Assembly: GCA_030268105.1 (NCBI GenBank)
Contig: BSDZ01000016.1
Location: 813,501 to 877,500 of the forward strand
Origin: Volvox africanus
Lineage: Eukaryota > Chlorophyta > Chlorophyceae > Chlamydomonadales > Volvocaceae
DNA: 64,000 nt
Direction of reading: 5' to 3'
The notes under the pieces are model-generated. The model searched no databases, was not told the origin of the DNA, and saw only the letters and a program-made list of their open reading frames with translations. The position numbers were made by a program, and so were the translations under genes. Shown here piece after piece: positions 7,537 to 54,748 of this stretch. Every line of letters starts with the position of its first letter. The first letter of the stretch is position 1.

Positions 7537-7575
7537 GGACACGGGCACGGGCACGGGCACGGGCACGGGCACGGC
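7537..7575. repeat. (GGGCAC)n microsatellite, unit A
   Basis: Tandem GGGCAC hexamers about 480 bp before the start codon. The same repeat is at 17351-17389 in B and is two units longer at 28991-29041 in C, so it is length-variable between otherwise identical flanks. Confidence 0.9.
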
Positions 7576-8050
7576 GGCGGGTGCAGCAAAGGCTGACACA
7601 ATTTTGCGTAAGAATACTTTACGATAAAAAATTGAACGCTCATTCGATGAGGTTTTCACCTTGTTTTTAGCTGATATGACGAACGTTGCAACTTACGGCT
7701 ACCAGTAGGGTAGCTGCGCCGCAGCCGTACCGCTTATCGAAAGGCCGTATGATCGGCCAAAGCCGACCCTAATAAAACAGTACGGTTTCGCGCTCCATTG
7801 CTGCAGACATTCAAGCTGTTCTGCTGGCCACGAGCAAGCGCAGCGCTAAGCAATATCTAGGTGATGTTCTTTTGACACTTGAACAGCAGTCTCTGCCATA
7901 TCTGGCAAATACGGCAGCTCATAAACCTGCTTGCTTGCAACGAAGGATCAACGTCCGCATTTAAACATCTCCTACGAGCGAGTCTGCAACCTAGCCGCTG
8001 CGCAACGCGGCTTCTGACGGCACGGCTGCTGGCTGCGAATATTGCAGTTC

Positions 8051-8057
8051 TATATAA
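8051..8057 (+). promoter_or_regulatory. TATATAA motif adjacent to start codon
   Basis: TATATAA lies only three bases before the ATG in A, and the equivalent sites in B and C read TATATATAA. A functional TATA box this close would place transcription initiation inside the signal-peptide coding region, so this is probably leader sequence. If it is a real TATA box, the start codon model is wrong. Confidence 0.2.
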
Positions 8058-8059
8058 CA

Positions 8060-11000
8060 ATGCTTACTTGTACTGCGGCCCATTACTGGCGCACAGCGCT
8101 CCTCGTAATAGCCCTGTGGGCTTCATCAGGTGGTCCGTTAGGCGTCTTCGCATCGCATTTCCGGTCTGGCATCGTCACCTACGCACTCAACCGCGAAGAC
8201 TCCACACTCCTGGATGTCACAGTGACCACCACCTGGAGGTAAGTTCTGACACGCACTGTTCCTTATTACTGCTCGTGAACGAAGCGTGCGTGTCGCCACA
8301 GTTTACATCGCGACAGTGTAAATCGCGACAGCGGGCTCATCTACGTTAGCTGTGAAGTGCTGTGCATGCCTGCGTGCCAACCTGTCTGCCTCGCTCCCAT
8401 TATATTGACTTTTGTTTGAGGCGGCCATCCCGTTTCCTCGAACCCAAATTATTTCCTTCCAGGTATCCTTCCGAGAATAGCTATAAGCTTTCTGCCTACC
8501 TGCGGACTTCTGTCGGAGACGACACAAGGCTATTCAAAACCAGCTCGGACGACGTCGTTAGTTACGGCCAGGACCTGTTATACAAAGGCTACATCATGCT
8601 CAGGTTGGATGCTCAACGCTCGCTCCTCTGGTAGTTCGTTAGGTTTGGCCTTGCTTATTGACCAGCCAAAAACACTTCACAAAAACGTGAATCTTGACAT
8701 TTATTTACACTTATTTTTATCTTCTATTTTTTCTTATATGCAGATCAATAATGCACGCACATTGAGGCAATATAATTGAAATAAGATTTCCTTTTGTGGT
8801 CCCTAAAAGTTGACACTGCGATCTAATGGGATATTATTATGTTTCTTTTAGTAGGTAGATCCAACTAACCCGGCGGAGGGGGACAGAGCCTTCCGTCTTG
8901 GGGTGGGGTCGCTTCGCCCTGGCCCTGCGTGGCTGGGGGAGGGACCACATACGGCCAGAAAACACCCTACCACTGTAAAATAACTATAGCTAATAAATAC
9001 AGGTTCTCGTACGTGACGATGATCTACTGTGTAATCGGCAATCTTAGAATAGATAGAGGGACATCTCTGAAGTAGAGCTCGCTCCCTCTTCAACGAATGA
9101 CAATAATACTTGAATAGGTACAGCGGGCAGGTGTGGGTTTTAGTACCGACGCGCTGTATGTGATTACGTTTCACATTTCCATGCCGCATCACTGGTGGCA
9201 TGTATTTGTATGTATTCAGGACGACAAGATCGATACCAGTTCCCACCGATCTCCCAGCCACCATCTATATATCGGACTGCTGCCGGGCTTTGAATCTTGT
9301 CGGATTTGGCGACTATTCCGGATACGATGATTATTCATATTTTACTTTTTCCACACAGTATGTTGCCGAAGCCCCCCAATCCATCATAGTGGACGTACCG
9401 CCCGTCACGATCACCGTTAATGCAGCTCCCGGGGTAAGCCTGTTACGTCATAACCGCGCGCATGCATGCCTATTGAACCCTGCAGAATAAGTTCAAAGTT
9501 GTACAATGTCTGATATTAATGGCGTTCATTGACAGGTGTCCTCCCAGCCTGCCGGCCTGCAAGCCTTGACAATTATTTGAAATTTTATTTATTAAGTATA
9601 TATTATTAATTATTATTTTTGAATAATTATTTTTATATTATTATTTTACACATTAGATGTGTGTGTATCTATTTCCATCATGCCTGCTTGCTGGCGACAT
9701 CCCTGCTGCTGCGTGCTGCGTTGCGGCTCTGAGAACGGGAAAGGGCGAGCTCCCCGTACGTTACCATGACGGGGGAGCTCATTTCCTGGCATCACGCGCT
9801 ATTGCACCCTGTGCTACAGTAGTCATTAGCTGCTGTCGCTGATGACATACCACGTGGTAGCTGTAATTAATGACTCGACCTTTTGACTCATGACTCTTCC
9901 CGCCCCCCTTCCCAACCTTGCATTCAATGTACCTACATACACACGAACGCACATCTATGTACGCATCAGCACTATGCGTACTTCTTTGTGCCCGCAATCA
10001 GCCCCACTGGTGCTCCCATCATCTGTTCCATTAATCGTGCACTCGCTTTCACCGCCCCGGTGAGTAGTTGGTGAGGCGGATTGCTGTACGGTATAGCTTC
10101 CTAATCCTTATTTGTTTGCGTGATTAGTAGGTAAAAACCGGGTAGTCACCATTATGATCGATGGTGATTGTCACTCAATGAGGCTGGATCATACAAATGT
10201 GTTGCTGAAAAGGTCGACACGTCATCAAGGCACTATACACGCACATACACATACATAGCTAATCACTGGAGACAGCTAGGCCTACATGCCTTGATCATTG
10301 CTGTTGCACATAGGTTGGTCTACGAGATGGATGCTCCCACCCGAAAAGGGCAATGTATTTTCGGTAGACAGCAACTAATAACAACCACGTAGGGATATGC
10401 CGTACTCCGGCGTTGGAATGTGTGCCCGCACTTACCTTCATTTCACTTCATGCACTTACGTACGCATCTACTTGGGCCCCATCTGCACCCGTTACGCTGC
10501 AGGATGAGCTCACTGCGACTGAAGTCAACGGAGGCTGCAGGTACGTACGTACCAGTAGGGATGCATGGTCATGGCTCGGCCGACCAATGGCTGGGCTAAT
10601 TAAGTGCTAATGAAGTCTGATTAAGGTTCGTGAAGTCCTTAACCAGGTCTGACTGTCATGTCGGAGCTAATAATTGTACTTGGGGTCTGTCTATGTCGTA
10701 GCTGTACGTGATGATGACATCGTCAACTGTTCCGTATAATATGTCGTTTTTAATGTTAGCAGCTGCTGGTATGCTGACGAGCAGGCAACTAATAGAGGCG
10801 TCACTCCAATGCGCCGCACGTCTTGTCAGTTTCTTACACCAGTCGGGCATGTGCCTAGCTACATACATACATACATACTGCATAAACAACCATTCCACGT
10901 GTGCAGCATCGGCTGGAGGAACTCAGGATACAATGACGGAACCACGGTTCCTGTCGGGCTCCGAGTCATGGATGTTACCACTGGGCAGTTTAACGACCTC

Positions 11001-12457
11001 ACTTTCCTCGTGGTATGTACGAATGTCCAGGGAAAGGGTCCAGGGAAAGGCGCGATTATGAAGCGTACGTACATAGGGATACATAGACACACGGTTAGAG
11101 ACATATAAGTGACCTGCGAGCTGACCAGTAGCGGAGTTGACGCCTTAGTTGATTCGGCAGATTCCGCTGGATGCTGGTGGTGGGTGCTGAACCTGGGAAA
11201 ACCACTGATTTCGGAGAAGTCGGCATGGGAGACTGGATTAGGGTGCCCCGAAACACCGGGGAAGGTAGGGACTGCCAGGTTAGTGGCCACGGGTGATGTA
11301 CCCCCCTATCCTACACACATATAAATCAGTTAGTTATACCGGATGGGTAGCATAGTAGTATATATTGAGTAAATATATTTTATTTTCATTCAGTCGTATG
11401 TAGTACATTTTTTCTATGCTGACCTAAGTTGGGTGTATTTCATTTGCGTGCGCGTTGTACGTGTTGTATCTTTGCTATATCCTCCTAATAAGCAAAGGCC
11501 CAACCAATCGGAAGATGACCATACACGGTCCATCCTGGACACTACCCGTAGACACCCCAGGATACTGCAGTACGTTCATAATAAGCCCATGCAGCGGGCG
11601 GCCTTCCTTGTGCGCCATGCATGCCGGCATCCTTTCACATACGTGGATATTGCGTGTTATCATTGTTTTGCCCTTCCCCCCCCGACACACGCTTTTATTA
11701 TTCATTCCACACTCGCTCCAATCCCACCCGCAGATGGTCGTTAGGTCCAACTTTCTGCCGGTAGTGGGCAAAATTACATTCGGTGGCATGACGCTGCCGC
11801 AGAATGGTGGCAGCGTCACCATGTACGTCGGAAAACAGAGCCAGGTATGTATATCCTGGGGTGCATATATAATACCTGTTTGTTCGTTCCATTATACTGC
11901 TTATCACGATGAAGGACGCTGCTGAATGCATGAATGTGCTGTATCTTTGGACATAATAAGCACATGTGCGAATGCATATGTGTATAAAAGCACAAAATAA
12001 GCAACCTCCCGAGCCATATGCGCAGATAGGTAGATAGGTAGATAAGTAGATAGGTAGGTAGGCAGATGGATAGATTGACGGAATGATGGATGGATTCCCT
12101 TCCTTATGGTACCTGTTATCAGCCACAAATCATGTAGTCCAGGGAATGCTGGGATTCCTCGCTGTTCGGTGATAGTGATCCTCGCCATTTCTAAGACCGT
12201 CCTCGATCACCTTGACCTCGCCAAACCTGTTTGTCACATGACTTATATGACTTATATTCTAATATGACTTTTTGTCAGCTACATACGAGATGCCATGACC
12301 CTAACCCCTAACCCCTTAACTGTAAAACCCTATACGTATAACCCTAAAACCCAACACACATAAAGCCTATATTATCTTCCTCTTATTTTATTATATAGAC
12401 TATAATAAATGTTTCTTTTCATCAGTTAGGCGAAATATCATGTGAAGTCGTTTTGGA

Positions 12458-12493
<36 letters not shown>

Positions 12494-13862
12494 CATGGGC
12501 AGGGCAGGGGCCCCGAGGCGCTTCATGCTGGGGCCCCGCCCAGTCGATATTTGGGATTCCTGAAGCAAGAAGGTTATAAATAGACAGATGACAACGAGTG
12601 ACTAGACTAGCAAATAAACGACCTGCCTGACTGTTTGAGCCTGTTTGTCTACCCTAACCCTCGGAGGACTCGCAATACGTGTTGCTGCTGTCTGGCAAAC
12701 TCCATGCCTTTCATACCTACACATTTCTCATGTTAAGTTTTAGATTGTGCGCAATACCAGAGGATGACCAATATTGCTGCTTGGATTACTCATGCATACG
12801 CAGGTACTGATTACTGCCACGGACCCCGCTCGGTCCGATCTCAACGCCACAGGCAGTTCGCTGCCTTCAGGTGCAACTTTGAACACCACACGAGGAAGGA
12901 TCCCTTCCTCCGCGATAGTGACATTCACCTGGACGCCCACAAGTGCAGACAATGACCGCGGTCTCGTTGTCATCGTCATCGCAAGTAGCCTCAATTTCTA
13001 TACCACAGTCTCATTCAGTTACATAGTTATTTCCCCTATTCTCCCGTTACCACCCCCACCTAGCAACTCCTTGCTTGTGGACTCCTTCAACTTCACCACT
13101 AGCTGCCTCCGCGGGCGTAAAGCATCCCAATCCCCTCTCCGAATGTTGTCCCCGCGGGGCCCCATCGTGGACAAGCATAGCTCGGTAGCCAACTACTGCT
13201 TCAGCATCACCAAAAATACCTCCATGGTTGGTGTCGCATCAATGTGCAGGTTTATGAACTCGGTGCGAAATCTCCATTTGATCATCAGTAAGTATACATC
13301 TGTGCGATCGATGGAGCTCGTGTTGCGGTGCTCGATCGGTGACGTACGTTTGTTGCACGAATTTTATTATTCATTTATTATGGTTGATCTTGGCTTATTA
13401 CTTAAACGACTATGACGTATAATAATGTCGTAGGCCGCGCGCCATGCGAAGTACACGAAGTACATTATTCGCCAATATATAAGTCCATCCGTATTTGTAT
13501 GCGTCTATTTATCCCCGCCGCCTATTGGTGTGTTGCATGCTGCAGATGCCAACTGCCTTCCAGACTTCACAACATTTAAGGTAAATGCTACAATCTATCA
13601 AGACGATGAAGGCACATATCCCATTACCTCCACTTCGATTCAATGGAAAGGTACGACTTACGGCATGTTGACCATCAAGCGGATCAACGATTTCTACTTC
13701 CTTTTGGGCAAGAGGACTCCGGGCCTTCTCCTGGACATATGCCTCCCTCTGGGCGCCGCTAAGGTATGCAACAGCCCCTCCACCTTGTGTTTCGGCCCCA
13801 CCTGCGTGTACCAGCTGGACGATGACTTGGGCTGCTGCTCCACCTCAGAAGTGCCGTACTAA
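8060..13862 (+). CDS. Secreted pherophorin-domain ECM protein, copy A
   Basis: Exons: 8060-8238, 8463-8603, 9220-9433, 9970-10059, 10503-10540, 10907-11012, 11734-11844, 12804-13287, 13546-13862; 1680 nt, 559 aa. All introns are GT-AG and every join keeps phase. Residues 1-31 form a signal peptide (core ALLVIALWASSGGPLGV). Residues 32-256 contain a beta-sandwich-like region with a CCR motif at 127-129 and VDVPPVTITV strands. Residues 294-365 resemble a CADG/He_PIG Ig-like repeat (ITATDP..LPSGATL..FTWTPTSAD). A short PLPPPP linker lies near 373-379. Residues 385-559 are a pherophorin (DUF3707) domain with paired cysteines, the STLCFGPTCVYQL segment and a final CCSTSEVPY. Several N-x-S/T sequons are present. 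The likely role is in the cell wall or ECM, by family. Start chosen because it gives a clean signal peptide. Confidence 0.85.
8239..8462 (+). other. Intron 1 of gene A (near-identical in all copies)
   Basis: A 224-bp GT-AG intron. Its counterparts at 18054-18277 and 29706-29929 have the same length. By hand count it differs from B at 6 sites and from C at 3, giving a neutral-like yardstick next to exon 2. Confidence 0.8.
11845..12803 (+). other. Intron 7 of gene A with telomere-like and CA repeats
   Basis: A 959-bp intron. It contains GATA-type repeats near 12025-12075, CCCTAA/CCCTAAAA-like words at about 12298-12352, and an (AC)n tract at about 12459-12491. The homologous introns in B (1846 bp) and C (1585 bp) are longer through extra blocks. 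Confidence 0.6.
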
Positions 13863-14919
13863 TGGGATTTACAAGTATTCTCCTCCATTTTGTTAACTCC
13901 CTTTTGTCGCGTTGTCGGCGGGAGTGGGGTGGAGATGTGTGTACATGTGTGCATGTTTTGTGACCGATTGTATGTTCTGATGGCGGGAAGTATTGAGGGA
14001 GGGGGAGGGAGATGGGGAAGATTATAAACTCAGCAGCCGGCAAGGCGTTAACAGCCCTCCACTTTGTTCATGTGGGCCTGAAGTGGGATTGAGAGTACGG
14101 GCTGAATGGCGTGACGGTTGGCGTGGTGGAAGTCACTAACAATGTGTATGTATGTGGAAGAAGTGGGCGCATTGCTCCGAGGGATGGGAACAGCCGCCAA
14201 GCAAGGTGTGCATTTTTGGCATCAGACCCGAGCAGGCGGAGGTAGGAGGTTGATTGTCACAGTTGTGGAGGAGGAGCGAGAAGGAAGAGGCGGTGAGTGG
14301 TGCTGGTAGATAGGAGGAATGAGGACTACACCGCTGCCCGTCCTCTTTCCTCTTCATAGCGAGCCTGACATTTCTCACTTATCCAAGCAAGTGGACACCT
14401 GGACCTGCAGGAGTCTAAGGTCCCCACACACACAGACAATATCACGCCATGCGCTCCTGTGGCTGGGGTTGTGGGTTTCCTGTCTTCCAACGCACCCCGC
14501 ATACCTCTGTCATCGGAATGTAGATGACACAGCACCGAATTGTTGTTTTGGGAACCTTTATTCAACTGCCTGCTGCTACGGCTGTGCGAGTTTGATTTTG
14601 TCGTGTTGCGTCCAGCGCTGGTTTGCATCGCCTGAAATTATGCCTGTTGCGTGCTTTCCTTGGCAAAGATCTCAGTTGTTAGCGAACCCTTCTGAAGGGA
14701 CTTTAATTGTTGTATCTTTGTTATATCCGCCTAAACAGACAGAAAGTCCGGGTCGGAAGATGTCCATACATGGTCCATCCCAGATACTGGTCTGTCCCAG
14801 ATACATCGACAGCCTAATTAGGAGACTAGTGCCAGGTGGGTCGTCACCTACCTAGCTTCGCTTTTGTTGTGTTACCACGTACGGATGAAGCGGACCGGAC
14901 TGCATAACGCGAGCGAACG

Positions 14920-14932
14920 TGTAATTTTGTAA
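14920..14932 (+). terminator. Twin TGTAA poly(A) signals, gene A
   Basis: Two TGTAA pentamers at 14920-14924 and 14928-14932, the usual volvocine 3' processing signal. I saw no closer one after the stop at 13862, which implies a 3' UTR of about 1.07 kb. The same pair occurs in every unit, 10-13 bases before the ATCAACGTGTGA junction where the 1.03-kb segment begins. Confidence 0.5.
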
Positions 14933-14953
14933 GCTGCATGCATCAACGTGTGA

Positions 14954-15990
14954 GAGCATGGTGGCAGGGGGTGAGGGGCGACAGAAGGCAGTTTAGGCCA
15001 GGACCAGACCAATAATGGATCTTCCCTTCCATCTCTCTCTCTCTTGTTGGATGGGGAGTTGAGTCGCACAAGAGTGTTTCGGCATGTGATCGTGGGTCCC
15101 ACAGGAGGGGAGCATCTTGCGAGGGCCCGATGATAGAGTCTTGATGACAGGGTTGGGAAAAGCGTGAAGAGCTGAATATGTGGCGGATAGGGGGGGGGGA
15201 CAACGAACATAGTGCCTTTCCCTGCTGCGTTTGGAGTGTTTGTTGCCACCAGCACTGTTGAAGCTGGCTTCACTAGCCGCAGTCGTAGTATGATGCATTT
15301 TATCATGCATTCTCCAAAGGGAGAGGAGATAGAGGGGTGGGAAGCTGCGGCAGGCCTGATGTATGTATTATGTTACCCCTGTACAAGGTCGCACAGTAAG
15401 AGGGGACGAAGGGGTCATCTACAGGGCTCAGGGCAGGGGGCCGATATTTACACCCAGACGTTGCCAAGTGAAGCGCCTGGCAGCACCTTGGATGACACAC
15501 CGCTGCAGCAGCTTGCTGGGGAACGGGATGATGAGTCTTCCCCAAAACCTATCTTGCTGTCCAAACTGCACTTGTGCTGTACAACCTCACGAAACTTGCT
15601 TAGGGTTGTCGACACCAAGGAAGGGAAGCTGGCCGCTGTCATATCCTCCACGTACAGTATGGCCGGGGGGGGGGACGGCATCCCTAAGAATCAGGGGATG
15701 TGTAAAAGGTAGGTAGGTAGGTATTTGCTACTACTGAAGTTCATACATATTGGAGTATCGTAATATACAAGGAACCTCGCAAATGTCCTTCCAGCTCCTC
15801 CTAGCGCCGCAACTCACACGTGAAAGCAAAACCAGACTCTCTGCAAAAACCCCGCTACACCACTACAGCTGCTCCAAGAGATAGGATTTGGGCAGGTTAG
15901 TTGGTGACTGAGGTCGGAAATGTGCGTGATTGCGTCCGTGGCGGTTAAGACAACGGAGCTCGCTGGGGTAGGCGGCCTAAATCAATTGTC
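14954..15990. mobile_element. 1.03-kb presence/absence segment in unit B (possible insertion)
   Basis: Absent from unit A, present in C (26600-27631) and partly in D. In B the left copy of ATCAACGTGTGA is intact (14942-14953) but the right junction is altered (ATCAATTGTCATACGG). An open frame at 15212-15712 (166 codons) is kept in both B and C but I recognise no domain. No terminal inverted repeats are obvious. It could be a non-autonomous element with a 12-bp target duplication, or ancestral sequence deleted from A between short repeats. Confidence 0.45.
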
Positions 15991-17874
15991 ATACGGGGCT
16001 GCAGCACGAACGTGTGGGAGAGCGAGGTCAGCACAAGTCCAGTTTATCAGTAAGAATACTGCGAACGTATGCATGCGCGTGTCTTTTCCGATAGCTGTTA
16101 CTCATCCTATAGTTGCGCTCGTCCAGGTCAAAATCGGTCGCACGGTAAGAAAGTCTATGCATTCTGATGCATAAATAGCCTTTAAAAAGTGCCAAACACG
16201 GCAAAGCGTAAAATGAAAGCGGATGGAGATTGCTCCATTGCTTTCGCGGAGTGCCGAAGCACTAGCGGGCGTCGTAAAGATTGCTACCCATATCGATACG
16301 GTACATTCCAGTGAGCATGTACTCATGCACACCTTTATACCTATTTAGACGAGTATGTTCCCCAAGCGCAGCCCGGGCCGTCTAACGCTGAGGCCGTCTT
16401 TTAAGCTAGAGCTCATTTTGTATTTAAAAACCGCAAACCTGTATACAGCTTGTGGAGATGGACGAACGGGCAGTTGGTCGATGATGGACGGTGGATGCTG
16501 GAAGGCGCTCAGCATTTTTGCATTTTTATAGGTAGACACCCACCCACCCATGCTGTCATGTTGCCTATCGGGAGCCCCTCCAAGGCATAACCATAATCCC
16601 TCAAAACAAAGCACCAGGAGCGAACGAACAGGGAAGTGCTGTGCGAGTGCAGAATGGCTGGGCGATGACGACAGGGCGACAGTTGGAAGCAAGGACCCCC
16701 AAGAAGTGTAAGGACATCATTTATATGCAACAAATGTGCAAGCAAGGAATAATGCAATTTTGGCAGCATCGTAAGAAATGAATATATTGGAGGAATCATA
16801 ATAGCTCTTAGGATGGCTCGTCCTGCCTCATCGATGGAGCACAGGGATACCCTTTACGTATTTGTTAAAGTTTCTAGCTCAAATGCTCGGCCTTCTCTTC
16901 TGTCGCCAAATCACAGGCATGGAGCCCATCCTACAGTCCAGGCCGCGAAGGAGAAGCAGGACACCAAAGCGAATGAAACGGCAAAAACATTGATGAAGAC
17001 ATCTGTTCAGACAAACATATGAAGGGAAAAATTTAGCGGCATTGGATTAGCAAAAGATACAGCTAGCTAGCAAATCATGTTAAGCTGCATTTCCTTTGCG
17101 ATTGTTTGCGTTTTTGTTCGTTTTCGTGCCGCGGACGAGATAGTGGTGCACGGGCAGCCCTCCATGCGCAACGCATCACTCATGGTATAAATCTATTTTG
17201 CTTTAAAATTGTTACCTGTCCTGTCTCTCACACTCTTCTCAACCGCGTGCGCTACAATGGTATTTGTTGCTTATCCATATCCACGTCACCTACCAGAGCG
17301 CGGTTCATGCTTGTCTACTTGGGGGAGATCAGGCCGGTTTCGGCGGGCTCGGACACGGGCACGGGCACGGGCACGGGCACGGGCACGGCGGCGGGTGCAG
17401 CAAAGGGCTGACACAATTTTGCGTAAGAATACTTTACGATAAAAAATTGAACGCTCATTCGATGAGGTTTTCACCTTGTTTTTAGCTGATATGACGAACG
17501 CTGCAACTTACGGCTACCAGTAGGGTAGCTGCGCCGCAGCCGTACCGCTTATCGAAAGGCCGTATGATCGGCCAAAGCCGACCCTAATAAAACAGTACGG
17601 TTTCGCGCTCCATTGCTGCAGACATTCAAGCTGTTCTGCTGGCCACGAGCAAGCGCAGCGCTAAGCAATATCTAGGTGATGTTCTTTTGACACTTGAACA
17701 GCAGTCTCTGCCATATCTGGCAAATACGGCAGCTCATAAACCTGCTTGCTTGCAACGAAGGATCAACGTCCGCATTTAAACATCTCCTACGAGCGAGTCT
17801 GCAACCTAGCCGCTGCGCAACGCGGCTTCTGACGGCACGGCTGCTGGCTGCGAATATTGCAGTTATATATAACA
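15991..17874. other. Upstream region of gene B
   Basis: Nearly identical to the upstream region of gene A from about 6178 to 8059, including the GGGCAC repeat at 17351-17389. No gene recognised. Confidence 0.5.
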
Positions 17875-20800
17875 ATGCTTACTTGTACTGCGGCCCATTA
17901 CTGGCGCACAGCGCTCCTCGTAATAGCCCTGTGGGCTTCATCAGGTGGTCCGTTGGGCGTCGTCGCCGACGGTTTCCGGTCTGGCATCGTCACGTACGCA
18001 CTCAACCGCGAAAACTCCACACTCCTGGATGTCACAGTGACCACCACCTGGAGGTAAGTTCTGACACGCACTGTTCCTTATTACTGCTCGTGAACGAAGC
18101 GTGCGTGTCGCCACAGTTTACATCGCGACAGTGTAAATCGCGACAGCGGGCTCATCTACGTTAGCTGTGAAGTGCTGTGCATGCCTGCGTGCCAACCTCT
18201 CTACCTTGCTCCCATTGCATTGACTTTTGTTTGAGGGGGCCATCCCGTTTCCTCGAACCCAAATTATTTCCTTCCAGGTATCCTTCCAATGATATAGATG
18301 AGCTTTACGTCTTCCAGCTGACTTCTGGCGGAGACGACACATGGGCATTCAAAACCAGCTTTGACGACGTCGTTGATTACGGCCAGGACCCGTTATCCAC
18401 AGGCTACGTCATTTTCAGGTTGGATGCTCAACGCTCGCTCCTCCGGTAGTTCGTTAGGTTCGGCCTTGCTTATTGACCAGCCAAAAACACTTCACAAAAA
18501 CGTGAATCTTGACATTTATTTACACTTATTTTTATCTTCTATTTTTTCTTATATGCAGATCAATAATGCACGCACATTGAGGCAATATAATTGAAATAAG
18601 ATTTCCATTTGTGGTCCCTAAAAGTTGACACTGCGATCTAATGGGATATTATTATGTTTCTTTTAGTAGGTAGATCCAACTAACCCGGCGGAGGGGGACA
18701 GAGCCTTCCGTCTTGGGGTGGGGGCCGCTTCGCCCTGGCCCTGCGTGGCTGGGGGAGGGACCACAACGGCCAGACAACTCCATACCACCATAAAATAACT
18801 ATAGGTTCTAAATACAGGTTTTTGTACGTGACGACGATCTACTGTGTAATCGGCAACCTTAGAGCAGAAGCTCATCTCTATTGGATTATAGCTGCTGCTG
18901 CTGCTTCCCACCTTTATGTGTCCTTGCAGATATTTAGGTCGATAGATAGAGGTGAAGTAGAAACCAGCCGGTTTCAACCTTATACATTGCATGTTTTTGC
19001 TGGGGTCCTGTTCCATCATGTTCTTGATTGACTAGGTGAAGCGCAAGGCTATTGACGAGGCTTCATTCCTTAAGGCTTACAAACGGGGTCCGCAAGCAAG
19101 CGCCAAGAGCAAGCTGACTCTGCTTGGCTAGGATTAACGACGGATGCAATGCCCCGCTTTCACCCCACACAATGCAAACTTCCCCATCGTCACCCATCGC
19201 AATCTTTATCCTTACGATGAGGGGAGTTAGGAGCAATAGTAGTCATAAAGCCTTTTCTAATCTGGAATGTCATTTCCTTATGAAAGAATCTAAAGCTTTA
19301 TTTGGGAGCGCTGCTATTTGGGGTTTAAATTCCATCTTACATCCTCGGTTGATACTACTGTGCAGAGCGGACAACATGTCAAGTATATGTATATATATAT
19401 ATATATATCAGCTTTCCCTATCTGTCCTGCCGCGAGCTCACTCCCTCACTCCACCACACAGGCCCCTAGCCTGGCTACCAAAGGCACAGCGCCACCGACT
19501 AAGTCGTTCGAAAGAGATAGAGGACTGAAAGTTAGTTCTAAGACCTCAGCCGCTATATGTGTTGTATCACACGCATGTTGTAAACAAAGAGCTCGCGAGT
19601 ATTAACGCCAGTTACGTCAGGATCAGGATGTCTAGTCATTCCCACGATACTACATATATTCGCCGCCCTTACTAGCTGAGAGCGTACCCCCAGCCAGTCA
19701 GACAGGCTCTGTCTTAGGCTGGATTTGAACGAAGCCTCATGGCCCATTCATGAGAGCTTTCAACCCCCGTGCAAGAGGAGTCCATGAAGCCACTAACACA
19801 TGTTTAGCACGTGAGACAACACCCAAGCATCCACCTCCTCCACCACAGCACGCACCCAGGCCAATGCGTGGCACTGCACCCCTCAGACAGATGGGCTCTC
19901 TTAGATGAGAGGGGGCCAACGAAAGGAGACCCTCCTCCCACGCAGTTTCTCAGAAGATCAGCAAAACACACCTACATACAGCAGATGCAGTGCGGGAGGA
20001 ACGAATGTATGACAAGTAGTATTATAGATAGATGTAACACATAGAGGCAACCCCACCTCTGGCAACCTAGCACCACCACCCACAGACAGCAGCCCTACTC
20101 AAGCCTGCAACATACGCAACGAAGATAAAAGTTGTTAGATGTGGGTTTTAGTACCGACGCGCTGTATGTGATTACGTTTTACATTTCCATGCCGCATCAC
20201 TGGTTGAATGTATTTGTATGTATTCAGGACGACAAGATCGATACCAGTTCCCACCGATCTCCCAGCCACCATCTACATATGGGGCTGCTGCCGGGTATTG
20301 GATCTTGTCGGATATGGCGACTATTCCGGATACGATGATTATTCATATTTTACTTTTTCCACACAGTATGTTGCCGAAGCCCCCCAATCCATCATAGTGG
20401 ACGTACCGCCCGTCACGATCACCGTTAATGCAGCTCCCGGGGTAAGCCTGTTACGTCATAACCACACGCATGCACGCCTATTGAACCCTGATGTTTTAAT
20501 TTGCAGCTGTACAATGTCTGTTATTAATGGCGTTCATTGACAGGTGTCCTCCCAGCCTGCCGGCCGGCCGGCCAGCCTTGAAAATTATTTGGAATTTTTA
20601 TTATTTTTGAATAATTATTTTTATATTATTATTTTACACATTAGATGTGTGTGTATCTATTTCCATCATGCCTGCTTGCTGGCGACATCCCTGCTGCTGC
20701 GTGCTGCGTTGCGGCTCTGAGAACGGGAAAGGGCGAGCTCCCCGTACGTTACCATGACGGGGGAGCTCATTTCCTGGCATCACGCGCTATTGCACCCTGT

Positions 20801-23549
20801 GCTACAGTAGTCATTAGCTGCTGTCGCTGATGACATACCACGTGGTAGCTGTAATTAATGACTCGACCTTTTGACTCATGACTCTTCCCGCCCCCCTTCC
20901 CAACCTTGCATTCAATGTACCTACATACACACGAACGCACATCTATGTACGCATCAGCACTATGCGTACTTCTTTGTGCCCGCAATCAGCCCCACTGGTG
21001 CTCCCATCATCTGTTCCATTAATCGTGCACTCGCTTTCACCGCCCCGGTGAGTAGTTGGTGAGGCGGATTGCTGTACGGTATAGCTTCCTAATCCTTATT
21101 TGTTTGCGTGATTAGTACGTAAAAACCGGGTAGTCACCATTATGATCGATGGTGATTGTCACTCAATGAGGCTGGATCATACAAATGTGTTGCTGAAAAG
21201 GTCGACACGTCATCAAGGCACTATACACGCACATACACATACATAGCTAATCACTGGAGATAGCTAGACCTACATGCCTTGATCATTGCTGTTGCACATA
21301 GGTTGGTCTACGAGATGGATGCTCCCACCCGAAAAGGGCAATGTATTTTCGGTAGACAGCAACTAATAACTACTACGTAGGGATATGCCGTACTCCGGCG
21401 TTGGAATGTGTGCTCGCACTTACCTTCATTTCACTTCATGCACTTACGTACGCATCTACTTGGGCCCCATCTGCACCCGTTACGCTGCAGGATGAGCTCA
21501 CTGCGACTGAAGTCAACGGAGGCTGCAGGTACGTACGTACCAGTAGGGATGCATGGTCATGGCTCGGCCGACCAATGGCTGGGCTAATTAAGTGCTAATG
21601 AAGTCTGATTAAGGTTCGTGAAGTCCTTAACCAGGTCTGACTGTCATGTCGGAGCTAATAATTGTACTTGGGGTCTGTCTATGTCGTAGCTGTACGTGAT
21701 GATGACATCGTCAACTGTTCCGTATAATATGCCGTTTTTAATGTTAGCAGCTGCTGGTATGCTGACGAGCAGGCAACTAATAGAGGCGTCACTCCAATGC
21801 GCCGCACGTCTTGTCAGTTTCTTACACCAGCCGGGCATGTGCCTAGCTACATACATACGTACATACTGCATAAACAACCATTCCACGTGTGCAGCATCGG
21901 CTGGAGGAACTCAGGATACAATGACGGAACCACGGTTCCTGTCGGGCTCCGAGTCATGGATGTTACCACTGGGCAGTTTAACGACCTCACTTTCCTCGTG
22001 GTATGTACGAATCCTGGGTCCAGGGAAAGGCGCGATTATGAAGCGTACGTACATAGGGATACATAGACACACGGTTAGAGACATATAAATCAGTTAGTTA
22101 TACCGGATGGGTAGCATAGTAGTACATATTGAGTAAATATATTTTATTTTCATTCAGTCGTATGCAGTACATATTTTCTATGCTGACCTAAGTTGGGTGT
22201 ATTTCATTTGGGTGCGCGTTGTACGTGTTGTATCTTTGCTATATCCTCCTAATAAGCAAAGGCCCAACCAATCGGAAGATGACCATACACGGTCCATCCT
22301 GAACACTACCCGTAGACACCCCAGGATACTGCAGTACGTTCATAATAAGCCCATGCAGCGGGCGGCCTTCCTTGTGCGCCATGCATGCCGGCATCCTTTC
22401 ACATACGTGGATATTGCGTGTTATCATTGTTTTGCCCTTCCCCCCCCCGACACACGCACCGTTATTCATTCCACACTCGCTCTAACCCCACCCGCAGATG
22501 GTCGTTAGGTCCAACTTTCTGCCGGTAGTGGGCAAAATTACATTCGGTGGCATGACGCTGCCGCAGAATGGTGGCAGCGTCACCATGTACGTCGGAAAAC
22601 AGAGCCAGGTATGTATATCCTGGGGTGCATATATAATACCTGTTTGTTCGTTCCATTATACTGCTTATCACGATGAAGGACGCTGCTGAATGCATGAATG
22701 TGCTGTATCTTTGGACATAATAAGCACATGTGCGAATGCATATGTGTATAAAAGCACAAAATAAGCAACCTCCCGAGCCATATGCACAGATAGGTAGATA
22801 GGTAGATAAGTAGATAGGTAGGTAGGCAGATGGATAGATTGACGGAATGATGTATGTATTCCCTTCCTTATGGTACCTGTTATCAGCCACAAATCATGCA
22901 CTCCAGGGAACGAAGCCATTAGCCATTCCTAATACCGTCGGTACAAGCCATGTATTGTAAGTGGGAGTGCGCGCATGGACATAGGTTATAGTAGTAGTTG
23001 AAGTATAGTATGATATTATGTACTTGTCTTGCAAATGAGAACTGGAGTGACAAGAATCCAAGCAAGCAAGGGGGATGGTGATTATTTTGTATGTGTGCGT
23101 GTATTCGCATGCAAATCATCAAGGCATGTTTAATATATATTCATAATATTCATAAGCTGTGCTAATTTATTGACTTACCTAGGTTACCTTGGTTAAGGCG
23201 GGAGAGGCAAAGGTTGACTGCGGACTTGGACAATCGAGAAACCTTGAAACATTGTGAACTTTATTTACTTACTACACTCAACCGTGAAACGTTTTACTAC
23301 TTGCGGCCAAAGTGAATAATTATTTATATTCGAGTCAGCTCAGATTTTAGAAATGTGGACCTAAGCACGTTTTCGAAACAAATGTAGCTGGAAAAGCGTT
23401 GATATCATTACCTTGACCTCGCCAAACCTGTTACTTATATGGCTTTTATGATTCATATACTTTTTTGACTCATGTCAGCTAGATACAGACGATATGCCAT
23501 TCAATCTATCTATCAATCTATCTATTTATCAATCAATCTATCAATCTAC

Positions 23550-23633
<84 letters not shown>

Positions 23634-23741
23634 ATGGATATATGGATGTGTGTATAACCCTAGAACTCCATAGTCCTATATATTCTCTTCATTAATATAT
23701 ATATATATACACACATATATATACGTATACATATACACACG

Positions 23742-23773
<32 letters not shown>

Positions 23774-25502
23774 GAACCCTAAAACCCTACATACATAAAG
23801 CCTATATATTTTTCTTCCCCTAATTTTATTATATAGACTACAATAAATGTTTCTTTTCATCAGTTAGGCGAAATATCATGTGAAGTCGTTTTGGAGACAC
23901 ACACACACACACACACACACGGACATGGGCAGGGCAGGGGCCCCCGAGGCGCTTCATGCTGGGGCCCCGCCCAAACGATATTTGGGATTCCTGAAGCAAG
24001 AAGGTTATAAATAGACAGATGACAACGAGTGACTGGACTAGCAAATAAATGACCTGCCTGACTGTTTGAGCAAGGCAGGAACCACTTTGTTTAGTGGTTC
24101 CTGGCACATGCATATCACATACACATATCAATTGCTCATATCCTCATGGAGAGCTACGTAGACGCAAAACCATGCATTGGTCTGTGCACTACGTAGGGAT
24201 CATATATTTCATCAGCACCAATACCGAAATGATCTAACCCGGGCTTGAAGACAGCGCTGGACTGATACTCTCCCCTCCCCTTTCTGCTCCTTCCCCCCTA
24301 ACCCTCGGCGGACTCGCTATACGTGTTGCTGCTGTCTGACAAATATATAACTCCATGCCTTTCATACCTACACATTTCTCATGTTAAGTTTTAGATTGTG
24401 TGCAATACCAGATGATGACCAATATTGCTGCTTGGATTACTCATGCATACGCAGGTACTGATTACTGCCAGGGACCCCATTGGGGCCGATCTCAACGCCA
24501 CAGGCAGTTCGCTGCCTTCAGGTGCAACTTTGAACACCACACGAGGAAGCATCCCTTCCTCCGCGATAGTGACATTCACCTGGACGCCCACAAGTGCAGA
24601 CAATGACCGCGGTCTCGTCGTCATCGTCATCGCAAGTAGCTTCAATTTCTATACCACAGTCTCATTCAGTTACATAGTTATTTCCCCTATTCTCCCGTTA
24701 CCACCCCCACCTAGCAACTCCTTGCTTGTGGACTCCTTCAACTTCACCACTAGCTGCCTCCGCGGGCGTCAAGCATCCCAGTCCCCTCTCCGAATGTTGT
24801 CCCCGCGGGGCCCCATCGTGGACAACGATACCTCGGTAGCCAACTACTGCTTCAGCATCACCAGAAATACCTCTATGGTTGGTGTCGCATCAATGTGCAG
24901 GTTTATGAACTCGGTACGAAATCTCCATTTGATCATCAGTAAGTATACGTCTGTGCGATCGATGCAGATGCTCGATCGCTGTACGAACGTTTGTTGCACG
25001 GTTTATTATTCATTTATTTTGATTGATCTTGTCGTATTACTTGAGCGGCTATGACATATACATAATAACGCAGGCCGCGCGCCATGCGAAGTACATGAAG
25101 TACATTATTCGCCAATATATAAGTCCATCCGTATTTGCATGCTCCTATTTATCCCCGCCGCCTATTGGTGTGCTGCATGCTGCAGATGCCAACTGCCTTC
25201 CAGACTTCACAAAATCTAAGGTAAATGCTACAATCTCTTCTGGACTTCATAATAGATTACCCATTACCTCCACTTCGATTCAATGGAAAGGTACGACTTA
25301 CGGCATGTTGAACATCAAGCGGATCAACGATTTCTACTTCACTTTGGACAAGGGGACCCAAGGCCTTCTCCTGGAGATATGCCTCCCTCTGGGCGCCGCT
25401 AAGGTATGCAACAGCCCCTCCACCTTGTGTTTCGGCCCCACCTGCGTGTACCAGCTGGACGATGACTTGGGCTGCTGCTCCACCTCAGAAGTGCCGTACT
25501 AA
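17875..25502 (+). CDS. Secreted pherophorin-domain ECM protein, copy B
   Basis: Exons: 17875-18053, 18278-18418, 20228-20441, 20958-21047, 21491-21528, 21895-22000, 22498-22608, 24455-24938, 25186-25502; 1680 nt, 559 aa, same phases and lengths as copy A, with no stop or frameshift. Domains are as in A. Differences from A are concentrated in a few places: the signal cleavage region (GVVADGF against GVFASHF), exon 2 (21 of about 46 residues), the residues around the CCR motif in exon 3 (YIWGCCR), and two patches in exon 9 (SSGLHNRL; FTLDKGTQG). Exons 4-7 and most of exon 8 are almost unchanged. Intron 2 is 1809 bp because of an insertion. Likely a functional paralogue, by intactness. Confidence 0.85.
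18855..20130. mobile_element. Inserted block in intron 2 of gene B
   Basis: About 1.2 kb absent from the 616-bp intron 2 of gene A but present in B and C. It includes, after a TAG acceptor-like site, an exon-like open stretch at 19036-19131 ending in a stop (basic peptide beginning VKRKAIDEASFLKAYKRG), with a TGTAA motif about 450 bp further on. It looks like a captured 3' terminal exon plus 3' UTR, or the tail of a transposable element. A (TA)n tract near 19386-19409 is longer in C. Boundaries are approximate. Confidence 0.4.
23545..23633. repeat. (CTAT)n microsatellite in intron 7 of gene B
   Basis: More than twenty tandem CTAT tetramers, followed by TA/CA-rich sequence to about 23770. It is absent from the corresponding positions of A and C, so it marks a B-specific expansion. 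Confidence 0.9.
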
Positions 25503-26599
25503 TGGGATTTACAAGTATTCTCCTCCATTTTGTTAACTCCCTTTTGTCGCGTTGTCGGCGGGAGTGGGGTGGAGATGTGTGTACATGTGTGCATGTTTTG
25601 TGACTGATTGTATGTTCTGATGGCGGGAAGTATTGAGGGAGGGGGAGGGAGATGGGGAAGATTATAAACTCAGCAGCCGGCAAGGCGTTAACAGCCCTCC
25701 ACTTTGTTCATGTGGGCCTGGAGTGGGATTGAGAGTACGGGCTGAATGGCGTGACGGTTGGCGTGGTGGAAGTCACTAACAATGTGTATGTATGTGGAAG
25801 AAGTGGGCGCATTGCTCCGAGGGATGGGAACAGCCGCCAAGCAAGGTGTGCATTTTTGGCATCAGACCCGAGCAGGCGGAGGTAGGAGGTTGATTGTCAC
25901 AGTTGCGGAGGAGGAGCGAGAAGGAGGAGGCGGTGAGTGGTGCCGGTAGATAGGAGGAATGAGGACTCACGCCGCTGCCCGTCCTCTTTCCTTTTCATAG
26001 CGAGCCTGACATTTCTCAAGTATGCAAGCACGTGGACATCTGGACTTGCAGGAATGTATAAGGTCCTCCCCCCCGACATACACAATATCACGCCATGCGC
26101 TCCTGTGGCTGGGGTTGTGGGTTTCCTGTCTTCCAACGCACCCCGCATACATCTCGGCAATCACACGGCTGACTGGTAACGGTTGAAGGCAGGATGAGGA
26201 TCCAAAAAAGACGATGAAAATGACCATCGGAATGTAGATGACACAGCACCGAATTGTTGTTTTGGGAACCTTTATTCAACTGCCTGCTGCTATGGTGCGA
26301 GTTTGATTTTGTCGTGTTGTGTCCAGCGCTGGTTTGCATCGCCTGAAATTATGCCTGTTGCGTGCTTTCCTGGGCAAAGATCTCACTCGTTAGCAAACCC
26401 TTCTGAAGGGACTTTAATTGTTGAAGATGTCCATACATGGTCCATCCCAGATACATCGACAGCCTAATTAGGAGACTAGTGCCAGGTGGGTCGTCACCTA
26501 GCTTCGCTTTTGTCGTGTTCCTACGTACGGATGAAGCGGACCGGGCTGCATAACGCGAGCGAAGGTGTAATTTTGTAAGCTGCATGCATCAACGTGTGA

Positions 26600-27631
26600 G
26601 AGCATGGTGGCAGGGGGTGAGGGGCGACAGAAGGCAGTTCAGGCCAGGACCTGGACCTGGACAAATAATGGATCTTCCCTTCCCTCTCTCTCTCTCTTGT
26701 CGGTTGGGGAGGTGAGTCGCACAGGAGTGATGGTGGGTCCCACAGGAGGGGAGCATCTTGCGAGGGCCCGATGATAGAGTCTTGATGACAGGGTTGGGAA
26801 AAGCGTGAAGAGCTGAATATGTGGCGGGTGGGGGGGGGACAACGAACATAGTGCCTTTCCCTGCTGCGTTTGGAGTGTTTGTTGCCACCAGCACTGTTGA
26901 AGCTGGCTTCACTAGCCGCAATCGTAGTATGATGCATTTTATCATGCATTCTCCAAAGGGAGAGGAGATAGAGGGGTGGGAAGCTGCGGCAGGCCTGATG
27001 TATGTATTATGTTACCCCTGTACAAGGTCGCACAGTAAGAGGGGACGAAGGGGTCATCTACAGGGCTCAGGGCAGGGGGCCGATATTTACACCCAGACGT
27101 TGCCAAGTGAAGCGCCTGGCAGCACCTTGGATGACACACCGCTGCAGCAGCTTGCTGGGGAACGGGATGATGAGTCTTCCCCAAAACCTATCTTGCTGTC
27201 CAAACTGCACTTGTGCTGTACAACCTCACGAAACTTGCTTAGGGTTGTCGACACCAAGGAAGGGAAGCTGGCCGCTGTCATATCCTCCACGTACAGTATG
27301 GCCGGGGGGGGGGACGGCATCCCTAAGAATCAGGGGATGTGTAAAAGGTAGGTAGGTAGGTATTTGCTACTACTGAAGTTCATACATATTGGAGTATCGT
27401 AATATACAAGGAACCTCGCAAATGTCCTTCCAGCTCCTCCTAGCGCCGCAACTCACACGTGAAAGCAAAACCAGACTCTCTGCAAAAACCCCGCTACACC
27501 ACTACAGCTGCTCCAAGAGATAGGATTTGGGCAGGTTAGTTGGTGACTGAGGTCGGAAATGTGCGTGATTGCGTCCGTGGCGGTTAAGACAACGGAGCTC
27601 GCTGGGGTAGGCGGCCTAAATCAACGTGTGA
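26600..27631. mobile_element. 1.03-kb presence/absence segment in unit C with 12-bp flanking repeats
   Basis: Bounded by ATCAACGTGTGA at 26588-26599 and 27620-27631; unit A has a single copy of this word (6166-6177) with matching sequence on both sides. This is the cleanest junction in the array. The segment begins just downstream of the twin TGTAA signals. Coding content unknown. Confidence 0.5.
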
Positions 27632-29526
27632 TACGGGGCTGCAGCACGAACGTGTGGGAGAGCGAGGTCAGCACAAGTCCAGTTTATCAGTAAGAATACT
27701 GCGAACGTATGCATGCGCGTGTCTTTTCCGATAGCTGTTACTCATCCTATAGTTGCGCTCGTCCAGGTCAAAATCGGTCGCACGGTAAGAAAGTCTATGC
27801 ATTCTGATGCATAAATAGCCTTTAAAAAGTGCCAAACACGGCAAAGCGTAAAATGAAAGCGGATGGAGATTGCTCCATTGCTTTCGCGGAGTGCCGAAGC
27901 ACTAGCGGGCGTCGTAAAGATTGCTACCCATATCGATACGGTACATTCCAGTGAGCATGTACTCATGCACACCTTTATACCTATTTAGACGAGTATGTTC
28001 CCCAAGCGCAGCCCGGGCCGTCTAACGCTGAGGCCGTCTTTTAAGCTAGAGCTCATTTTGTATTTAAAAACCGCAAACCTGTATACAGCTTGTGGAGATG
28101 GACGAACGGGCAGTTGGTCGATGATGGACGGTGGATGCTGGAAGGCGCTCAGCATTTTTGCATTTTTATAGGTAGACACCCACCCACCCATGCTGTCATG
28201 TTGCCTATCGGGAGCCCCTCCAAGGCATAACCATAATCCCTCAAAACAAAGCACCAGGAGCGAACGAACAGGGAAGTGCTGTGCGAGTGCAGAATGGCTG
28301 GGCGATGACGACAGGGCGACAGTTGGAAGCAAGGACCCCCAAGAAGTGTAAGGACATCATTTATATGCAACAAATGTGCAAGCAAGGAATAATGCAATTT
28401 TGGCAGCATCGTAAGAAATGAATATATTGGAGGAATCATAACAGCTCTTAGGATGGCTCGTCCTGCCTCATCGATGGAGCACAGGGATACCCTTTACGTA
28501 TTTGTTAAAGTTTCTAGCTCAAATGCTCGGCCTTCTCTTCTGTCGCCAAATCACAGGCATGGAGCCCATCCTACAGTCCAGGCCGCGAAGGAGAAGCAGG
28601 ACACCAAAGCGAATGAAACGGCAAAAACATTGATGAAGACATCTGTTCAGACAAACATATGAAGGGAAAAATTTAGCGGCATTGGATTAGCAAAAGATAC
28701 AGCTAGCTAGCAAATCATGTTAAGCTGCATTTCCTTTGCGATTGTTTGCGTTTTTGTTCGTTTTCGTGCCGCGGACGAGATAGTGGTGCACGGGCAGCCC
28801 TCCATGCGCAACGCATCACTCATGGTATAAATCTATTTTGCTTTAAAATTGTTACCTGTCCTGTCTCTCACACTCTTCTCAACCGCGTGCGCTACAATGG
28901 TATTTGTTGCTTATCCATATCCACGTCACCTACCAGAGCGCGGTTCATGCTTGTCTACTTGGGGGAGATCAGGCCGGTTTCGGCGGGCTCGGACACGGGC
29001 ACGGGCACGGGCACGGGCACGGGCACGGGCACGGGCACGGCGGCGGGTGCAGCAAAGGGCTGACACAATTTTGCGTAAGAATACTTTACGATAAAAAATT
29101 GAACGCTCATTCGATGAGGTTTTCACCTTGTTTTTAGCTGATATGACGAACGCTGCAACTTACGGCTACCAGTAGGGTAGCTGCGCCGCAGCCGTACCGC
29201 TTATCGAAAGGCCGTATGATCGGCCAAAGCCGGCCCTAATAAAACAGTACGGTTTCACGCTCCATTGCTGCAGACATTCAAGCTGTTCTGCTGGCCACGA
29301 GCAAGCGCAGCGCTAAGCAATATCTAGGTGATGTTCTTTTGACACTTGAACAGCAGTCTCTGCCATATCTGGCAAATACGGCAGCTCATAAACCTGCTTG
29401 CTTGCAACGAAGGATCAACGTCCGCATTTAAACATCTCCTACGAGCGAGTCTGCAACCTAGCCGCTGCGCAACGCGGCTTCTGACGGCACGGCTGCTGGC
29501 TGCGAATATTGCAGTTATATATAACA
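27632..29526. other. Upstream region of gene C
   Basis: Almost base-for-base the same as the upstream regions of A and B apart from two additional GGGCAC units at 28991-29041. No gene recognised. Confidence 0.5.
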
Positions 29527-31034
29527 ATGCTTACTTGTACTGCGGCCCATTACTGGCGCACAGCGCTCCTCGTAATAGCCCTGTGGGCTTCATCAGGTGG
29601 TCCGTTAGGCGTCTTCGCATCGCATTTCCGGTCTGGCATCGTCACGTACGCACTCAACCGCGAAAACTCCACACTCCTGGATGTCACAGTGACCACCACC
29701 TGGAGGTAAGTTCTGACACGCACTGTTCCTTATTACTGCTCGTGAACGAAGCGTGCGTGTCGCCACAGTTTACATCGCGACAGTGTAAATCGCGACAGCG
29801 GGCTCACCTACGTTAGCTGTGAAGTGCTGTGCATGCCTGCGTGCCAACCTGTCTGCCTCGCTCCCATTGCATTGACTTTTGTTTGAGGCGGCCATCCCGT
29901 TTCCTCGAACCCAAATTATTTCCTTCCAGGTATCCTTCAAAGAATGGCTATGAGAGTTTCGTCTACCTGCAGAATTCTGGCGGAAACGACACACTGGTAT
30001 TCAACACCAGCGAGGACGTCGTCGTTGGTTACGGCCAGGACCCGTTTTTCAAAGGCTACATCATTCTCAGGTTGGATGCTCAACGCTCGCGCCTCCGGTA
30101 GTTCGTTAGGTTCGGCCTTGCTTATTGACCAGCCAAAAACACTTCACAAAAATGTGAATCTTTACATTTCTATTTACGCTTATATTTAACGAGTAATTTT
30201 ATTTACTTGCATATCAATAACGCACGCACATTCAGGCGATCTAAATGAAATAACATTACTTTTGCTGGTCCCTAATAGTTGACATTGCGATCCAATGGGA
30301 TATTGTTATGTTTCTTTTAGTAGATAGATCCAACTAACCCTGCGGAGGGTGACAGAGCCTCCCCTTGGGGTTGGGGCCGCTTCGCCCTGGCCCTGCGTGG
30401 CTGGGGGTGGGACCACAACGGCCAGACAACTCCATACCACCATAAAATAACTATAGGTTCTAAATACAGGTTTTTGTACGTGACGACGATCTACTGTGTA
30501 ATCGGCATCCTTAGAGCAGAAGCTCATCTCTATTGGGTTATAGCTGCTGCTGCTGCTTCCCACCTTTATGTGTCCTTGCAGATATTTAGGTCGATAGATA
30601 GAGGTGAAGTAGAAACCAGCCGGTTTCAACCTTATACATTGCATGTTTTTGCTGGGGTCCTGTTTCATCATGTTCTTGATTGACTAGGTGAAGCGCAAGG
30701 CTATTGACGAGGCTTCATTCCTTAAGGCTTACAAACGGGGTCCGCAAGCAAGCGGCAAGAGCAAGCTGACTCTACTTGGCTAGGATTAACGACGGATGCA
30801 ATGCCCCGCTTTCACCCCACACAATGCAAATTTCCCCATCGTCACCCATCGCAATCTTTATCCTTACGATGAGGGGAGTTAGGAGCAATAGTAGTCATAA
30901 AGCCTTTTCTAATCTGGAATGTCATTTCCTTATGAAAGAATCTAAAGCTTTATTTGGGAGCGCTGCTATTTGGGGTTTAAATTCCATCTTACATCCTCGG
31001 TTGATACTACTGTGCAGAGCGGACAACATGTCAA

Positions 31035-31075
<41 letters not shown>

Positions 31076-45963: not shown

Positions 45964-54748
<8,785 letters not shown>

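Follow-up and report, generated by a model that had tools for sequence, protein, structure and literature searches.

Can a single small exon change heavily in three tandem genes while the DNA beside it stays nearly the same, and is selection needed to explain it? The question is raised by a 64,000-nucleotide stretch of Volvox africanus DNA (contig C16, positions 813501-877500, forward strand), here called the window, which carries a tandem triplet of apparently pherophorin-related genes, A, B and C. An original prediction, made from the window alone, had singled out exon 2 of these genes as hypervariable in an almost identical background. We find that the pattern is real and well bounded, that a second variable segment lies in exon 9, and that support for diversifying selection at the two segments is moderate. 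The features concerned, in window coordinates, are the following.

8060-13862, + strand: gene A, nine exons, 559 amino acids, a splice-consistent model (exons 8060-8238, 8463-8603, 9220-9433, 9970-10059, 10503-10540, 10907-11012, 11734-11844, 12804-13287 and 13546-13862)
17875-25502, + strand: gene B, nine-exon layout as in A, 559 amino acids
29527-36879, + strand: gene C, nine-exon layout as in A, 564 amino acids
8463-8603, + strand: the hypervariable exon 2 of A, 47 codons with the split ones included
18278-18418, + strand: exon 2 of B
29930-30070, + strand: exon 2 of C

Exon 2 lies where the original prediction had placed it: it measures 141 bp in each copy, has AG/GT borders and an open frame in A, B and C, and contains no frameshift or stop in any of them. 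The predicted base differences were likewise recovered (27/141 for A-B, 25/141 for A-C), and B-C adds 29/141; pairwise divergence is 18-21% for all three pairs. Silent codons make up 0 of 21 changed codons between A and B, 1 of 21 between A and C, and 1 of 23 between B and C. Length and frame are kept, and the YPS, YGQD and GY residues are retained in all copies. At the protein level 27 of the 47 exon 2 residues vary, nine of them three-way, that is, different in all three copies; of the 85 variable sites among 559 residues, exon 2 takes 27 within a span of 46 (residues 61-106; hypergeometric p 7e-13). Amino acid identity among A, B and C is 53-57% in exon 2, 89-93% in exon 3 and 99-100% in exons 4-6. 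Exon 2 carries a net charge of 0, -7 and -2 in A, B and C, and N-glycosylation motifs at 79 and 85 are found in exon 2 of C only, differences that would fit a variable surface.

To place exon 2 among the rest of the unit, we used sliding windows of 141 columns (2624, overlapping). Exon 2 tops the minimum pairwise divergence at 0.177, against a median of 0.007 for all windows and a maximum of 0.057 among the 1643 windows that lie wholly in non-coding DNA, a count from which only A 12148-12372 was removed. The second-ranked window, A 13583-13723, lies in exon 9 (0.135); exon 2 is therefore not the only hypervariable place. The exon 9 stretch comprises six residues in a row, 472-477, all different in the three copies:

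13596-13613, + strand: the exon 9 stretch in A, YQDDEG (second hypervariable segment, residues 472-477)
25236-25253, + strand: the exon 9 stretch in B, SSGLHN
36613-36630, + strand: the exon 9 stretch in C, GNEYDD

Of 18 three-way residue sites in total, nine are in exon 2, these six are consecutive in exon 9, and three are elsewhere (residues 126, 302 and 509).

The immediate surroundings of exon 2 were compared over the following features.

8239-8462, + strand: intron 1 of A, adjoining exon 2 on its 5' side, near-identical among the copies and always 224 bp
6166-8059, + strand: upstream region of A, with near-identical counterparts ahead of B (from 15981) and C (from 27620)
30071-31891, + strand: intron 2 of C, with a 195-base divergent stretch near its 5' end

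Between copies, intron 1 has 6, 3 and 5 changes in 224 bases (A-B, A-C and B-C), and the divergence of exon 2 exceeds it in each pair (Fisher p 1.7e-7, 1.1e-8 and 5.9e-9). Upstream DNA, with A 6166-8059 as the reference, differs at 4/1893, 5/1894 and 5/1894 sites; because it is nearly identical, the three genes are probably under similar control. On the 5' side the 49 bases preceding the first changed exon 2 site, 40 of them intronic, are identical in all copies. The prediction of almost identical introns and flanks thus stands for the 5' side, and for the 3' side between A and B, but fails for C on the 3' side of exon 2. There, the stretch corresponding to A 8686-8880 differs at 1/195 sites between A and B, 30/195 between A and C, and 31/195 between B and C, setting C apart at 15-16%. 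Within 224 bases from the start of intron 2 the differences number 3, 30 and 29 in the same order, and for A-C (p 0.29) and B-C (p 0.057) the divergence there is not significantly below that of exon 2. A repeat block was considered as the source of the divergent C sequence and rejected: the stretch matches only the three genes in the assembly, and a check with intron 2 of A returned five matches, all inside the three genes.

Introns 2, 6 and 7 vary greatly in length among copies, intron 2 of B and C being ~1.2 kb longer than that of A. Intron 7 of B contains a block unlike A and C (~23445-23795) that includes an (ATCT)32 array at 23504-23633, and intron 7 of A holds telomere-like CCCTAA(C/A) motifs at 12299-12360, identified by eye.

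Away from the two variable segments, the differences among copies are arranged in runs. The early part of intron 2 and exon 7 (10/111 differences from both A and B) set C apart, and the downstream region sets A apart (B-C 0/654, A-B 26/648, A-C 26/648). At the 158 variable non-coding sites, A is the odd one out at 66, B at 25 and C at 67, and no three-way site occurs in 5462 masked non-coding columns. Neighbouring non-coding sites belong to the same class in 107 of 157 cases, with 58.9 expected (permutation p 0.0002), and the remaining exons, with 2 and 9 left out, behave alike (41/58, 20.0 expected). Exon 2 (9/32, 10.2 expected) and exon 9 (11/29, 9.5 expected) show no such tract pattern. These tests left out any column lying 10 or fewer columns from a gap, and the non-coding test also left out A 9040-9140 and 12148-12372. 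We read the mosaic tracts over most of the unit as probable products of gene conversion or unequal crossing-over, with the islands having diverged copy by copy. One more piece of the array precedes gene A:

5408-6177, + strand: extra 3' flank copy, 99.87% identical to 14184-14953

It resembles what is left of one more unit, as though an earlier one had been lost or cut; in the window before 5408 no similarity to the tandem units is listed.

Diversifying selection on exon 2, the explanation first offered, gained moderate support, from only three sequences, through codon maximum likelihood (ML), star-tree counts and the contrast of non-synonymous (N) and synonymous (S) changes. In the codon ML tests, with kappa (the transition/transversion ratio) fixed at 2, omega (the ratio of non-synonymous to synonymous rates) is 4.55 for exon 2 (likelihood-ratio test p 0.006), or 4.17 with free kappa, and exon 2 differs from the rest at p 0.016. 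Omega is 1.02 for all but exon 2 (p 0.93), 0.73 for all but exons 2 and 9 (p 0.27) and 1.35 for the whole gene (p 0.15). By exon the values are 0.56 for exon 1 (p 0.39), 1.38 for exon 3 (p 0.62), 21, on a single change, for exons 4-6 (p 0.47), 1.56 for exon 7 (p 0.66), 0.52 for exon 8 (p 0.09) and 2.04 for exon 9 (p 0.11); the first 45 codons of exon 9, a segment picked post hoc, gave 4.62 (p 0.013). On the star tree exon 2 has 39N/4S, exon 9 33N/5S, and the other exons 45.25N/20.75S. Synonymous change in exon 2 is not similar to non-synonymous change but below it. Simulation without selection yielded 10.5, 11.7 and 12.4 synonymous changes in exon 2 at kappa 1, 2 and 3 (P 0.0068, 0.0035 and 0.0025), and exon 2 departs in its N/S counts from the remaining exons, exon 9 set aside (Fisher p 0.005). 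For the codon counts the five extra linker codons of C were taken out at a place chosen by the analyst. All of these tests draw on shared data from three sequences of one strain and are not independent of each other, and the star-tree and ML tests were chosen after the weak binomial counts given below were known.

The explanation that we consider best, with rather more confidence than doubt, is a homogenised triplet with diversifying selection at the exon 2 and exon 9 segments. Most of the unit of these pherophorin-related, matrix-type genes is a mosaic of tracts in which a single copy stands apart, such as conversion or unequal crossing-over leaves behind, and in exon 2 and the six-residue exon 9 stretch each copy has diverged on its own, chiefly through amino acid changes. 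Selection would favour different sequences at both segments and weed out conversion there. The two segments may be parts of a binding surface, and one alga would then make three versions of the same protein. Candidate selecting partners, which we do not rank, are a mating or pheromone partner, a parasite and a matrix ligand.

Several results weigh against this explanation. Pairwise binomial counts for exon 2 are weak (p 0.0435, 0.161 and 0.0997), and the tests that are significant are moderate (p 0.0025-0.016) and uncorrected; multiplying by nine exons puts exon 2 at ~0.05. With 4 changes in ~30 sites, exon 2 has a synonymous rate ~2 times that of other coding DNA (P 0.16, where the ~305 synonymous sites of that DNA were entered by hand) and 3-4.5 times the non-coding rate (P 0.013-0.038). 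The divergent part of intron 2 of C is non-coding DNA. AlphaFold2 predictions for a relative from V. reticuliferus (P0006) and for a fragment of B (P0005) reached mean predicted local distance difference test scores of 49.3 and 38.5, too low to place the variable residues. Finally, the three sequences come from one strain.

A further point on the same side comes from contig C5, where another tandem pherophorin-like cluster lies near 1.71 Mb; its proline rod was recognised by eye, and its last exons are 39-40% identical to A. In the 12 kb compared, a ~11% divergent island lies upstream of the rod (L051 449-778 versus L053), flanked by 0 differences in 120 bases 5' and three in 120 bases 3'; other 60-base windows mostly have 0-4 differences, and one has 6. 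Its synonymous and non-synonymous divergence are equal (proportions of differing sites 0.101 and 0.116), and omega in the cluster is 0.94, 1.19 and 1.13 for three pairs over 155 codons, L050, one of four stretches taken from the cluster, having been left out of the codons since the rod junction is too near its start. An island can therefore occur without omega above 1, and the claim of selection in the triplet rests on the N and S counts, not on the island.

These observations define the main rival explanation, in which exon 2 is an island of old divergence missed by conversion, under relaxed constraint, with selection unneeded. It draws on the widespread mosaic tracts, on the divergence of part of C intron 2 and of the C5 island without an excess of amino acid change, on the somewhat raised synonymous rate of exon 2, on the weak binomial tests, and on the conservation of exon 2 within the family, the lowest among exons 1-6. 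Since the synonymous rate is raised, part of the island is possibly older divergence that escaped homogenisation, and such divergence probably contributes. As a full account, however, it must accommodate a 39N/4S count that is improbable without selection (P 0.0025-0.0068), an omega in exon 2 that differs from the rest (p 0.016), and the finding that the top three-way windows are exon 2 (0.177) and exon 9 (0.135), far from the best non-coding value of 0.057. Exon 2 is also constrained, because the YPS, YGQD and GY residues are kept. We regard old divergence alone as possible, and distinctly less probable than a homogenised triplet under diversifying selection.

Much less probable is that exon 2 is swapped as a cassette from a donor reservoir, or mutated by a dedicated system, as the original prediction had allowed. 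The change does end near the exon borders, the first variable base being base 10 and the last being followed by 4 unchanged bases. Yet DNA queries with exon 2 of A, B and C matched only the three copies among the best candidates scored in the 140,993,249 bases of the 141-Mb assembly, and no fourth copy of any variant appeared; exon 9 moreover has a similar variable stretch, and it is not a separate small exon. Targeted mutation is at odds with a mixed spectrum (13 transitions and 20 transversions at two-state sites) that has no adenine bias, and with synonymous sites that changed less than non-synonymous ones.

The least probable explanation is an assembly artefact of collapsed or chimeric copies, suggested by gene starts only 9.8 and 11.7 kb apart and long stretches 94-98% alike, and opposed by three intact open genes, differing introns, large indels, the absence of N, and the haploid vegetative stage of Volvox. 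The public partial models for A and B are also exact, though from the same assembly, which is described as gap-free contigs built from PacBio and Illumina reads (PMC10291315).

The assembly, of strain 1101-NZ-11, is reported as 141.0 Mbp in 129 contigs, with a sex-determining-like region published on contig0022 and gene predictions that used transcriptome support (PMC10291315). Two of its partial models coincide with our genes: VaNZ11_006718 (P0008, 196 amino acids) is identical to A residues 13-208, and VaNZ11_006722 (P0005, 259 amino acids) to B residues 301-559. Transcriptome-assisted predictions behind the models of A and B are weak evidence for expression; for C, no identical public gene model was found among the protein-search matches. 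All three genes have GT-AG introns and a single open frame, and the 5 additional residues of C relative to A and B lie within the proline-rich linker. Judging from the hydrophobic protein start and the family, the proteins are probably secreted.

The description of the triplet as an extracellular matrix gene family held, with one reservation. The C-terminal part of B (P0005) resembles pherophorins, being 55-56% identical to P0001 (VaNZ11_005471, V. africanus) and P0002, both of which bear a precomputed Pfam pherophorin domain, and PF12499 (DUF3707) matches 2 of 6 members of the sequence set A2 (best E 1.4e-12). A, however, has no PF12499 match up to E 1, and its N-terminal region matches no Pfam family above the cut-off in a profile search that may miss divergent domains; residues 278-368 of A have sub-threshold immunoglobulin-like (Ig-like) Pfam matches (E 0.029 and 0.049). 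A brief run of prolines forms the linker (PILPLPPPP for A and B, PPPPPSPPLPPPP for C), and the relatives P0001 and P0002 have long proline rods. Three protein searches gave 4, 3 and 9 matches; the first and third scored only the 7999 candidates with most shared words, and limits on length and words applied, which leaves room for wider relatives. Every match belongs to V. africanus or V. reticuliferus except P0009, a protein from a metagenome that is made of Ig-like repeats and covers 30% of the query (E 5.5e-7). A search of solved structures with A2 gave a single chance-level match (E 0.18). Against V. reticuliferus P0006, identity is 36-43% in exon 2, 65-66% in exon 3 and 72-73% in exons 4-6, exon 2 being the least conserved of the segments compared (exons 1-6). 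By hand calculation the exon 2/exon 3 divergence ratio is ~5 inside the triplet and ~1.8 between species; saturation may contribute to the lower between-species value. Two partial relatives lie elsewhere in the genome, one at C13 3736050-3746389 (the 3' part) and one at C26 near 428.6 kb (the first exon only, in 20 kb examined).

Elsewhere in the window, an open reading frame at 51967-52485 has a sub-threshold HSP70 match (E 9.5e-4), and an ATT array of 107 units follows shortly after it at 52662-52983.

The evolutionary mode proposed here, selected segments within homogenised tandem copies, is already known from other gene families. In animal venom families, exons diverge faster than introns in recent tandem copies. 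Exon 2 of the triplet outpaces intron 1 in the same way, although protein and role differ and there is no sign of a toxin. A second parallel is provided by RPP8-type nucleotide-binding leucine-rich repeat genes of plants, described as tandem copies with inter-locus conversion and selected ligand-contact residues (PMC6771003). There, as in the triplet, duplicates swap sequence and certain residues stay hypervariable; RPP8 genes, however, are plant immune receptors with population data, whereas the triplet encodes an algal matrix-type protein seen in one genome.

Pherophorins themselves are extracellular matrix glycoproteins of Volvox and Chlamydomonas, a family to which the V. carteri sex inducer belongs (PMC9818292, PMC12637917); they are characterised by two globular domains joined by a proline-rich rod, and by species-specific expansions (PMC9818292). 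The triplet shares with them the C-terminal resemblance seen in B, a proline-rich linker and tandem copies, but differs in an N-terminal region without a Pfam match, a short linker, and the lack of PF12499 in A. The V. carteri sex pheromone is reported to contain a pherophorin domain and to be inactive on Eudorina in a preliminary test (PMC12637917). Modelled on that pherophorin-type, apparently species-specific inducer, the triplet might be a set of recognition ligands, three variants made at once, in which exon 2 and exon 9 form a polymorphic binding face marking species, mate or clone, and conversion keeps the scaffold uniform; we think this unlikely on present evidence. No report of hypervariable exons in volvocine pherophorins was found among the titles and abstract openings listed, a body of literature that excluded most subscription journals.

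The triplet locus offers a clear test case for a homogenised array with selected segments, being short and bordered by nearly identical DNA from which it could be amplified, and strains of both V. africanus and V. reticuliferus kept in culture are reported as already sequenced (PMC10291315). Pherophorins have been studied as building blocks of the matrix; selected segments in a uniform background would suggest a role in recognition.

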